The notes under the pieces: generated by a model | Told to the model about the DNA's origin: nothing | Database searches by the model: none | The model's input: the letters and a program-made list of their open reading frames with translations, nothing else | Translations under genes and position numbers: made by a program | Shown here: positions 25,109 to 29,019 of the stretch, in pieces | Position numbering within the stretch: the stretch's first letter is position 1 | Layout: every line of letters begins with the position of its first letter | Source: a virus | Length of the DNA stretch: 43,309 nucleotides | IMG/VR virus record: IMGVR_UViG_3300040811_000700 | Span: 1 to 43,309 of that record | Strand: one strand, 5' to 3'

Positions 25109-25639
25109 ATGCTTATGAAAACAGATGAACTAGGTATTCCACGATTCTCTAACAAGGATCTAATCAATATGATCTATAGTGGCAATATAGACAAGTGCCA
25201 CATAGTTCTTTGTGATCCAAGTGATGACGTAGACAAGTTCAATAGTGCTATGGAAGAACAAGGCCTTAGCAAACTACAAAAGTATATCCCATTAGATGTA
25301 GATCAACAGACTTTTGACGGTGTATGTCAAAGTGAATGGTTTATGCCTGATGAATACAAAGACATTAATGTATATGACTATGTATTAGGCAAAGCAGAAA
25401 CACCCTGCCCACAACATGTACAAGATCGTATATGGGAAGAATTAGACGCTTTTGAAGAACGTAATATGCATAACTTATTGCGTTACATGATCTATCTTGT
25501 AGACTTTATGCGTGAGAATGAGATTGTATGGGGTGTAGGACGTGGATCAAGTGTAGCAAGTTATGTGCTGTATTTGATAGGTGTGCATAAAATAGATTCA
25601 ATCCAGTTTGGCCTGGATTGGAGAGAGTTCTTAAGATAA
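25109..25639 (+). CDS. Fragment resembling the palm of DNA polymerase III alpha (DnaE/C family), 176 aa
   Basis: The C-terminal half contains IVWGVGRGSSVASYVLYLIG followed by VHKIDSIQFGLDWREFLR, which matches the C-family polymerase segment with GRGSS, then a YLLGIT-IDP-type stretch and a FERFL-type end. The preceding DAFEERNMHNLLRYMIYLVD fits the helical segment before it. Catalytic aspartates of the palm should come after this point, but the ORF stops there, so no polymerase activity is expected. In-frame ATGs at 25109 and 25115 are both possible; neither has a good Shine-Dalgarno. It sits between virion genes, not replication genes. It may be a remnant or a repurposed nucleotide/DNA-binding piece; I recall similar short ORFs in marine T4-like phages. 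Confidence 0.7.
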   Translation: MLMKTDELGIPRFSNKDLINMIYSGNIDKCHIVLCDPSDDVDKFNSAMEEQGLSKLQKYIPLDVDQQTFDGVCQSEWFMPDEYKDINVYDYVLGKAETPCPQHVQDRIWEELDAFEERNMHNLLRYMIYLVDFMRENEIVWGVGRGSSVASYVLYLIGVHKIDSIQFGLDWREFLR

Positions 25640-25642
25640 ATA
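25634..25642 (+). promoter_or_regulatory. Late promoter box AGATAAATA
   Basis: AGATAAATA overlaps the end of the preceding gene. Predicted +1 near 25648 gives a 28-base leader with a strong AAGGAGG before the ATG at 25676. Confidence 0.65.
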
Positions 25643-26742: not shown

Positions 26743-27120
26743 ATGACAAACCCATTTAAAGATCAAAAAGACTTTATGGAAGCCTGCAACCAGACAGTTA
26801 CAGGTGACGGCTTAAACTTTGAACAATACGGAATGTATCTTAAATTAATTCAAGAAGAAGGTAACGAACTTGCTGACGCAATCAAGGATAACGATCTTGT
26901 AGAACAATTGGATGCATTACTTGATATTATTGTTGTTAGTATTGGTGCTATGAATAGCTTAGGTGTAGACGCAGAAGGTGCATGGAACGAAGTTATGCGT
27001 ACAAACATGGCTAAGATTGATCCAGAAACTGGCATGGTGCGTAAACGCGAAGACGGAAAAGTTCTAAAACCTGATGGTTGGACTGCACCAAATTTAAGAA
27101 AATTTGTAGAAAATAACTAA
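26743..27120 (+). CDS. MazG-like nucleotide pyrophosphohydrolase, 125 aa
   Basis: The MazG/HisE/dUTPase-type alpha-helical signature is present: E38-E39-x2-E42 (IQEEGNELADAI) in helix one, and EQLDALLDIIVV with D57 and D61 in the second, which together bind Mg. The C-terminal NMAKIDPETGMVRKREDGK fits the substrate loop of phage MazG-like proteins. Family members hydrolyse NTPs or dNTPs to monophosphates. It is the last gene before a sigma70-type promoter. A second, shorter member is encoded at 27863. Substrate cannot be told from sequence. Confidence 0.85.
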   Translation: MTNPFKDQKDFMEACNQTVTGDGLNFEQYGMYLKLIQEEGNELADAIKDNDLVEQLDALLDIIVVSIGAMNSLGVDAEGAWNEVMRTNMAKIDPETGMVRKREDGKVLKPDGWTAPNLRKFVENN

Positions 27121-27129
27121 AAATAATAC

Positions 27130-27158
27130 TTGACTCCTTAGCATTTATGCGTTATAAT
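27130..27158 (+). promoter_or_regulatory. Sigma70-type promoter TTGACT-N17-TATAAT
   Basis: TTGACT (27130-27135) and a perfect TATAAT (27153-27158) are separated by exactly 17 bases, with a predicted start near 27165. This is the clearest host-sigma70 promoter I found in an intergenic region of the window. It would drive the 53-residue membrane protein and the downstream exonuclease, MazG-like and clamp-loader genes early in infection. Confidence 0.85.
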
Positions 27159-27177
27159 ATGTATAAAGCTAAGGAGT
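27133..27177 (+). promoter_or_regulatory. Inverted repeat enclosing the early promoter and masking the RBS
   Basis: ACTCCTTAGC (27133-27142) is a perfect complement of GCTAAGGAGT (27168-27177). The downstream arm contains the AAGGAG Shine-Dalgarno of the gene at 27182. The upstream arm lies in the promoter spacer, before the predicted +1, so RNA from this promoter lacks it. RNA reading through from upstream can form the stem and hide the site. Confidence 0.72.
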
Positions 27178-27181
27178 TTTC

Positions 27182-27343
27182 ATGAAAATTACACCACAAA
27201 CAGCAGGCCTAGGCACAACAGGCGCTACAGGCATTGCTTTACTAATCTTACACACAACAGGATATCTAACAGGATGGGCTTGGCCAATTCTTTATGTATT
27301 CCTTATCATCTCAGGCATCGGACAAGAAAATAGGAAGGGATAA
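27182..27343 (+). CDS. Small two-segment membrane protein, 53 aa
   Basis: ATG at 27182, five bases after a strong AAGGAGT; stop TAA at 27341-27343, two bases before the exonuclease ATG. The sequence begins MKITPQTAGLGTTGATGIAL, and the middle is hydrophobic in two stretches (GIALLILHTTGYL and WAWPILYVFLIISGIG), ending in the charged QENRKG. It is the first gene of the only sigma70-type transcript, so it is likely an early product acting at the inner membrane. No known family is recognised. Confidence 0.75.
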   Translation: MKITPQTAGLGTTGATGIALLILHTTGYLTGWAWPILYVFLIISGIGQENRKG

Positions 27344-27345
27344 AC

Positions 27346-27870
27346 ATGGCTATTCATGCAATGATAGACTTAGAAACGCTTCATACTACTCCACAAGCTA
27401 CTGTACTTACAGTAGGTGGTGTAAAATTTAATCCATTCGATAGTTCAGAACCACACAGTGAGTTTTATTTTAAACTTGATATTGATAGTCAGAACAGAGA
27501 AGTTAGTGATGACACAATTACTTGGTGGGGACAACAAGATCCAAAAGTGCAGGAAGAAGCATTTAGTTCAGAAAACCGAGTATCAATGGAAACATTTTTA
27601 GATAGTTTACCAAAATGGATGGTAGGTGTTGATGTACTTTGGGGACATGGCTACGGATTTGATATTACTATCATTGAAGATATGTTACGTCAATGTAATA
27701 AATCTATTCCTTGGCAATTTTGGCAAGTAATGGATAGTCGTACATTGTTTAATTTATGTAAAATTGACCCTCGTAAAGCAATGCAAACAGATCTTCACAA
27801 TGCGTTAGCTGATGCATATTTTCAAGCAAAGGGTGTGCAAATGGCTTACAAGGAGTTAGGTCGTGGATAA
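27346..27870 (+). CDS. DEDD-family 3'-5' exonuclease (RNase T/DexA-like), 174 aa
   Basis: D8 and E10 in MIDLETL, followed by ATVLTVGGVKF, are the ExoI motif of DEDD exonucleases. GYGFDITIIEDML around residue 105 supplies the second Asp, and H151/D156 in DLHNALADAYFQA form ExoIII of the DEDDh subtype. All catalytic residues are present. The protein is shorter than T4 DexA (about 227 aa) but of the same type. Likely degrades single-stranded DNA or RNA 3' ends. It is second in the early transcript, and its end overlaps the next gene. Confidence 0.85.
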   Translation: MAIHAMIDLETLHTTPQATVLTVGGVKFNPFDSSEPHSEFYFKLDIDSQNREVSDDTITWWGQQDPKVQEEAFSSENRVSMETFLDSLPKWMVGVDVLWGHGYGFDITIIEDMLRQCNKSIPWQFWQVMDSRTLFNLCKIDPRKAMQTDLHNALADAYFQAKGVQMAYKELGRG

Positions 27871-28108
27871 GGAAACAAAACTGTTAGTTATTACTATGGA
27901 AGAATGCGGTGAACTTACACGAGCATGTTCAAAAGTACTTAGGCACGGCGCTGATGAAAAACGTTCTACACAACTTATGGAAGAAGCAGGCGATGTTATG
28001 TGTATGATTAAATTGTTAGTAGAACAGAAATATTTCTCTTGGCAAGACTTAGAAAATCGTGTACAATATAAACTAGACAAATTAGAAAGTTATAAAGGGG
28101 TAGTATGA
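27863..28108 (+). CDS. Second MazG-like protein, 81 aa
   Basis: The GTG start at 27863 overlaps the exonuclease end by eight bases and is supported by AAGGAG seven bases upstream. Motifs are E13-E14-x2-E17 (MEECGELTRAC) and E40-E41-x2-D44 (MEEAGDVMCMI), the two metal-binding helices of the MazG fold. The remainder (LVEQKYFSWQDLENRVQYK) is the third helix. It is a minimal MazG-like domain. With the larger MazG-like protein at 26743 the phage has two, perhaps with different substrates. Its 3' end overlaps the clamp-loader start. Confidence 0.8.
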   Translation: MDKETKLLVITMEECGELTRACSKVLRHGADEKRSTQLMEEAGDVMCMIKLLVEQKYFSWQDLENRVQYKLDKLESYKGVV

Positions 28109-29019
28109 AAGAACTATGGGTAGAGAAGTATCGTCCAAAAACAGTAGACGGTTATGTGTTTAGAGATGACGCACAAAGAGCACAGGTAAATACATGGATT
28201 AAAGACAAAACTATCCCGCATTTGCTGTTTAGTGGTAATGCAGGTATTGGTAAAACAACACTTGCTAAACTTTTATTTAATGAGCTTGAAGTTAATGACT
28301 TAGATGTATTAGAAATTAACGCAAGTCGCACAAACTCAGTTGATGATGTAAGAGATAAAATTGTTAACTTTGTACAGATGATCCCATTTGGGGACTTTAA
28401 GGTTGTATTACTAGATGAAGCAGATTACTTATCACCAAACGCTCAAGCAGCTCTCCGTGGGGTTATGGAGGAGTATCATACTACTGCTCGTTTCATTCTT
28501 ACTTGTAACTATCCAAATCGTGTTATACCCGCTTTGCATAGTAGGTGTCAAGGTTTCCACATTGCTAAAATTGACCAAACTGAGTTCACGGCTAGAGTTG
28601 CTGAAATCCTTATCACTGAAGGTGTTACTCCTGATTTGGATACGTTGGATACCTACGTAAAAGGCACATATCCAGACTTGCGCAAATGTATCAACACAGT
28701 ACAAATGAATAGTGTTGACGGTGTATTGAATAAACCCAACGAAGGCGATACAGGCGAGAGTGACTGGAAACTTGAAATGGTTGAACTGTTTAAGGCAGGC
28801 AAGATTCAAGAAGCACGTAAATTATTGTGTGGCGCAATTCGTCCAGAAGAGATGGAAGAAGTGTATCGTTGGCTATATGACAATATTGAACTATTTGGTG
28901 ATGCAGAACAACAGGATCAAGCAGTACTAACAATCAAACAAGGAATGGTAGATCATACATTGGTTGTTGATCCGGAAGTTAATTTGGCAGCTACGCTTAT
29001 TAGATTGGCAAGATTGTGA
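28105..29019 (+). CDS. 44: Sliding clamp loader large subunit (gp44-like AAA+), 304 aa
   Basis: The N-terminal WVEKYRPKTVDGYVF is the clamp-loader signature. Walker A is at 44-52 (GNAGIGKTT), Walker B at D104-E-A-D107, and the SRC arginine-finger motif at 146-148 (ALHSRCQGF). T4 gp44 (319 aa) with gp62 loads the gp45 clamp in an ATP-dependent way for processive replication; the same is expected here. The small subunit and clamp are not in this window. ATG overlaps the preceding MazG-like gene by four bases. Confidence 0.95.
   Translation: MKELWVEKYRPKTVDGYVFRDDAQRAQVNTWIKDKTIPHLLFSGNAGIGKTTLAKLLFNELEVNDLDVLEINASRTNSVDDVRDKIVNFVQMIPFGDFKVVLLDEADYLSPNAQAALRGVMEEYHTTARFILTCNYPNRVIPALHSRCQGFHIAKIDQTEFTARVAEILITEGVTPDLDTLDTYVKGTYPDLRKCINTVQMNSVDGVLNKPNEGDTGESDWKLEMVELFKAGKIQEARKLLCGAIRPEEMEEVYRWLYDNIELFGDAEQQDQAVLTIKQGMVDHTLVVDPEVNLAATLIRLARL

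Follow-up and report, generated by a model that had tools for sequence, protein, structure and literature searches.

In fold-back protection of the IS10 type, RNA that arrives from outside folds so that the ribosome binding site (RBS) is hidden, and a sigma70 promoter lies inside the inverted repeat. PeSL (promoter-early stem-loop) elements, the subject of reports by Arbiol in 2010 and Comeau in 2014, are said to be recombination cassettes made of a promoter plus a terminator. A third group of systems is found at T4 e, soc, 49, I-TevI and segB and at mobE of phage Aeh1, where an RNA hairpin in the long transcript hides the RBS (PMC3014915, PMC2988022). In the e, soc and I-TevI type, a late promoter of the TATAAATA class is nested in the hairpin, so near the gene that the 5' arm is absent from its own RNA, and it is early and middle read-through that is silenced. 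The genes regulated by e-type hairpins are all late (PMC2988022), and the architecture with a late promoter cuts T4 lysozyme synthesis 100-fold (PMC3014915).

We analyzed a window of 43,309 nt (IMGVR_UViG_3300040811_000700), one strand of a fragment of a T4-like myovirus; the phages studied form one T4-like group of uncultured marine phages. From 1 to 24 kb the plus strand of the window is taken up by tail and fibre genes. After 24 kb come, in order, part of a DNA polymerase gene, genes for a GroES-like protein and MazG, the hairpin element, and genes for an exonuclease, MazG, a clamp loader, DHFR and ThyA, with virion protein, endolysin and spanin genes 3' of DHFR and ThyA. The upstream neighbor of the element is a MazG-like/PRA-PH pyrophosphohydrolase gene (26743..27120, plus strand; phrog_671, E=3e-36; PF01503, E=2e-10), whose stop codon is 10 nt 5' of the -35 hexamer and whose RNA would continue into the hairpin. 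Downstream, the ATG at 27182 opens a plus-strand gene for a 53-aa predicted two-helix membrane protein (27182..27343). Starting 2 nt past its stop is a 3'-5' exonuclease gene of the DexA/Rv2179c-like kind (27346..27870, plus strand; PF16473, E=2e-33; phrog_255, E=2e-40), and the same plus-strand gene run goes on to a MazG-like pyrophosphohydrolase (27863..28108; phrog_4856, E=2e-19) and a T4 gp44-like clamp-loader subunit (28105..29019; phrog_168, E=3e-76). The window holds two distinct MazG-like pyrophosphohydrolase genes inside 1.2 kb (26743-27120 and 27863-28108).

The element itself lies on the plus strand and begins with a sigma70-type promoter, TTGACT-N17-TATAAT (27130-27158), with the -35 hexamer at 27130..27135, a 17-nt spacer and the -10 hexamer at 27153..27158. 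From the promoter position, transcription is predicted to start at 27165, 7 nt past the -10 hexamer. The Shine-Dalgarno (SD) sequence AAGGAG is at 27171..27176. The initial annotation was correct to the base, and the two 10-nt arms on which it relied, ACTCCTTAGC (27133-27142) and GCTAAGGAGT (27168-27177), are indeed exact complements, but the extent that it gave the hairpin was too short. The structure runs from 27132 to 27178 and has 20 base pairs with one bulge, A27143. Its 5' arm (27132..27152) is made of the ACT of the -35 hexamer and the entire spacer, the six bases of its apical loop coincide with the -10 hexamer precisely, and the RBS falls in the 3' arm (27159..27178), so the promoter is nested in an RBS-masking RNA hairpin as had been proposed. 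The predicted stability was -25.4 kcal/mol (z -7.5), a value that none of 200 shuffles equaled. With a gap of 15-30 nt between them, the two arms are found a single time in the window and never in 100 shuffles. The perfect promoter match is also unique in the window, while matches with up to two mismatches occur at the level expected by chance (11 seen, 10.6 expected). No Rfam covariance model matched the hairpin at the gathering threshold.

RNA from the predicted start at 27165 lacks the 5' arm, so the hairpin cannot form in it. We modeled both RNA versions and found that the probability of GGAG being unpaired was 0.0006 in the long RNA versus 0.47 in the short RNA from 27165, which bears out the annotated claim that only upstream RNA folds the hairpin. 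The short RNA can form a weak local hairpin of its own, and in the model its RBS is no more than about half accessible.

We think it likely that the element, embedded in an early promoter, serves as a translational insulator and would tie the gene product to that promoter. Host-type RNA polymerase at TTGACT-N17-TATAAT would make RNA from about 27165 without the 5' arm; the RBS on this short RNA would be free, the 53-aa gene would be translated, and the abutting exonuclease would probably be translated by coupling with it. RNA from upstream, notably late RNA from the GATAAATA motif at 25635 and from the preceding tail genes, would copy the promoter as well. In such a long RNA the -35 end and the spacer would become the anti-Shine-Dalgarno strand, the 20-bp hairpin would shut the RBS, and the first gene would be silent. 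As in the e, soc and I-TevI type, the promoter is so near that its own RNA, by the start predicted here, lacks the 5' arm. Unlike in that type, the nested promoter is of the sigma70-type early class, and it is late or other read-through that would be silenced. The locus also resembles the IS10 type in having a sigma70 promoter within an inverted repeat and entering RNA that would fold over the RBS, but the IS10 type belongs to transposase genes and insertion-sequence ends, and there is no mobile element here.

The source of late read-through that we propose is an 8-mer, GATAAATA, which is the commonest 8-mer 5' of long ORFs in related contigs. It occurs 10 times in the window versus 3.1 expected (sites include 842, 12267, 15498, 20686, 24235, 25635, 32856, 35913 and 40351); 9 of the copies are on the plus strand, and most lie just 5' of plus-strand ORFs. 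By its position and its likeness to T4 TATAAATA, it is apparently the late promoter of the group. The nearest same-strand copy 5' of the hairpin (25635..25642, plus strand) is about 1.5 kb away, and of the copies 5' of the hairpin in relatives, often 1.2 kb off, 38 are plus-strand and 1 is minus-strand. We found no terminator match on the plus strand between 24 and 32 kb of the window. Since GATAAATA lies upstream on the same strand with no terminator match in between, late read-through into the hairpin is to be expected. Restriction of the membrane protein to the early phase, as the initial annotation proposed, would follow from the promoter class and from this upstream late-type motif.

To follow the element in other phages we compared 69 distinct upstream regions of 53-aa relatives. 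Strong arm pairing was found in 54 of the 64 regions with a promoter match, with a median SD accessibility of 0.001 for the long RNA against 0.47 for the short one. About 8 of some 62-64 promoter-bearing relatives (L077, L148, L155, L160, L188, L231, L239 and L244) are without a good hairpin, so the hairpin is not essential. Two 53-aa relatives (L157 and L158, near 4000) have an SD-masking hairpin with no promoter match within it.

The initial annotation had expected the arms to be conserved as complements in related phages, and this is what we observed. Arm sequences diverge yet stay complementary (CTCCTTAGC/GCTAAGGAG, CTCCTTAGTT/AACTAAGGAG, CTCCTTGCTT/AAGCAAGGAG, CTCCTAATGCT/AGTATTAGGAG and others), and complementarity is kept even in relatives in which the arm register is shifted as a whole, for example CCTTGTATGC/GTATACAAGG; L145, L146 and L246 have such a shift with retained pairing. 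When 43 relatives were aligned, 91.5% of the cells of a 19-pair helix were paired. In the same alignment the covariation score was 0.337, compared with 0.136±0.010 in shuffles, of which 0 of 500 reached it, and at most 0.074 for slid structures; 86 cells were changed on both sides against a comparison value of 30. On a tree built from the coding DNA, parsimony put the number of switches, on both sides, at about 8 for pair 12-48 and about 15 for pair 14-46. Shared descent and recombination inflate such covariation counts, while the slid controls and the ratio of G·U to A·C are less affected. The pairing counts also rest on a MAFFT alignment, but an arm-swap test, which is independent of the alignment, gave -19.7 kcal/mol for a region's own arms versus -12.8 kcal/mol for swapped arms, with 57 of 64 regions beating the mean of divergent swaps.

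We weighed whether the pairing might come about by chance from two motifs under constraint (TTGACTCC and GGAGT) together with common descent. The ACTCC/GGAGT core is almost invariant among the 43 aligned relatives, which fits that account, and the core is uninformative by itself. The variable pairs outside the core, however, covary repeatedly, and the -35 hexamer of this family is not the usual one: it is TTGACT in 45 of 58 members of the 53-aa family (78%), while 174 of the 203 other promoters of the group (86%) have TTGACA and most of these other promoters lack an SD-pairing hairpin. A preference for TTGACT is what a requirement for pairing between base 6 and the A of GGAG would produce. Coincidence is accordingly the least credible of the explanations that we weighed, and we regard it as extremely unlikely. 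The promoter class to which these hexamers belong is real in the group, since 12 related records contain 94 copies of the exact TTGAC-N18-TATAAT pattern versus 5 copies of the reversed control. Two marine contigs (L261 and L268, contigs G001 and G002) have small ORFs packed into dense clusters, and most of these ORFs have a TTGACA-N17-TATA promoter to themselves; the clusters are likely an immediate-early region.

An inverted repeat that flanks the -10 hexamer symmetrically and overlaps the -35 hexamer might also act in the DNA, as the operator of a regulator or as a cruciform that controls the promoter. What is conserved, however, is the complementarity and not the sequence of the arms. Moreover, the stems contain 83 G·U pairs versus 10 A·C pairs, under symmetric scoring that does not favor G·U, where composition predicts about equal numbers, and a DNA palindrome leaves this excess unexplained. 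Because G·U so far exceeds A·C, selection acts on the plus-strand RNA and not on a DNA operator, and we consider a DNA-level role very improbable. The hairpin is kept by selection as plus-strand RNA.

A stem-loop in this position could instead be a transcription terminator fused to the early promoter, as in a PeSL cassette, ending upstream transcripts and not masking the RBS. Composite promoter-terminator motifs are known in T4-like phages, as cited in PMC4503421. TTTT stands 3' of the arm in the window, and several early promoters of T4 and of the marine phages have a stem-loop around the -10 hexamer whose 3' arm is not the RBS. Against this, the U-run is not a conserved feature: of 60 relatives, 24 have no T run longer than 1-2 nt past GGAG and only 25 have one of 4 nt or more. 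There is also no terminator match at the hairpin. When stems of -12 kcal/mol or lower were collected, TTTT came next after none of the 10 in T4 and after 1 of the 52 in marine contigs. It is the SD pairing that is preserved instead, even through register shifts, and we consider a terminator unlikely here. The resemblance to PeSL is that of a strong early sigma70-like promoter with an overlapping or adjacent stem-loop. The element differs from PeSL in having no conserved U-run and in having the SD sequence as the paired arm; it is present as a single copy in the window and its arms differ between genes, whereas PeSL are near-identical repeated cassettes that promote shuffling. The e type fails here on the late promoter and PeSL on the terminator, and the element would work like the e type in the opposite temporal direction.

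The initial annotation had assigned the hairpin to the membrane protein, and the RBS of the 53-aa gene is indeed the one that would be masked in the window, but tying the element to that protein proved too narrow. In relatives, the 53-aa stop is 0-3 nt 5' of the exonuclease start, or the two genes run together without a clear gap scored. Among relatives without the 53-aa gene, L050/L054, L059 and L061 have the hairpin at the exonuclease itself, and L010, L014, L028, L032 and L033 have a weaker, bulged form there. In many relatives that lack the 53-aa gene, no such element was found at the exonuclease. Since the exonuclease can carry the element when the 53-aa gene is absent, the element belongs to whichever gene comes first in the unit, and we rejected the 53-aa gene as its sole target.

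Other genes carry it too. Among 203 other promoter-gene pairs of the group, 16 (about 8%) had SD pairing of -12 kcal/mol or lower, versus 2.3 expected from swaps. At a 142-aa gene (phrog_27048), the hairpin is retained in five diverged relatives with arms that have changed and covary, and a HAD-like gene (phrog_420) has a nested hairpin in several relatives. In L390 and L392, near 1500, a HAD-like gene has a nested promoter hairpin with the arms AACTCCC/GGGAGTT, which is apparently independent in origin.

We put T4 (AF158101; loci L452-L454) through the same promoter-hairpin scan. Of its 45 early promoters, 10 had a nested stem of -12 kcal/mol or lower versus 2.0 expected, and some of these stems exclude the SD sequence. 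The early promoter of regB (AF158101 62740) is nested in an SD-masking hairpin of -23.1 kcal/mol (z -4.5), and that of alc (AF158101 about 136275-136278) in one of -26.9 kcal/mol (z -3.8). Further copies were found at alt.-3 (123032) and, weaker, at mrh.2 (15232). As at the marine locus, the promoter is early, the -10 hexamer is in or near the loop and the 3' arm is the SD sequence, while the genes and hosts are unrelated. The regB arms in Mosigvirus and phiE142 relatives are TTCTCCTCTAGTTG/CAACTAGAGGAGAA instead of TTTTCCTCTTGACTG/CAGTTAAGAGGAGAA, a compensatory change. The likeness to T4 gene e noted in the initial annotation holds, and T4 itself uses the early-promoter direction as well, at regB and alc. 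Early promoters with a strong, PeSL-like stem-loop around the -10 hexamer, in which the 3' arm is not the SD sequence, were seen in T4 on the minus strand (34202 and 42011 in L453, 29389 in L452) and in marine L261 and L268, with no U-run 3' of the stem-loop.

The regB promoter is a typical early promoter that is shut off within 2-3 min, and RegB cuts GGAG in T4 early leaders, its own leader included (PMC3014915). The hairpin could be a processing or protein-binding site, for RNase III or for a RegB- or RegA-like factor, that activates the long RNA or causes its decay, with RBS masking as a by-product. About 20 bp of double-stranded RNA that includes GGAG would suit such a factor. The stem and loop have no sequence-specific feature except the promoter and the SD sequence, however, and both stem length and bulges vary, and we find this account improbable.

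Returning to RBS masking, we lean toward the view that self-insulating early promoters are a general class in T4-like phages, in which the -35 hexamer and spacer would serve as an anti-Shine-Dalgarno strand so that translation would come only from the gene's own early promoter. The class would be a mirror image of e, soc and I-TevI, would recur at roughly one in ten early promoters, and would include T4 regB and alc. In dense, co-directional phage genomes, early genes must be protected from renewed expression by late read-through. Shutting early promoters leaves late RNA free to cross these genes, and the nested design would stop their expression there. It would do so at no extra sequence cost, the promoter doubling as the antisense strand of the RBS. 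The presence of the design at regB, whose nuclease product cuts early messages of the phage itself, and at alc makes it testable by standard T4 genetics, and in uncultured phages the hairpin could be read as a signature of temporal class.

We found no description of the regB or alc hairpin in the literature searched, in which subscription papers were thinly covered. An early-promoter version of the e-type hairpin was likewise not found there, which is weak evidence given that most subscription papers were outside its scope, and the variant may have been described before.

The 53-aa protein is conserved in at least 80 viral contigs, and a wider search with the protein gave 229 candidates. It had no PHROG or Pfam family above the cutoff and no fold match in a viral fold library. 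The phage collection searched contained no cultured relative of the protein, and the DNA of the region was likewise without a match. The sole match in a cellular genome (L249, PBPT01000016.1) belongs to a contig of 335 kb from a bin assigned to Candidatus Neomarinimicrobiota; it may hint at the host or be a phage contig within that bin, and we do not claim Neomarinimicrobiota as the host. An AlphaFold model of the protein (pLDDT 78) has helices at residues 8-30 and 33-52.
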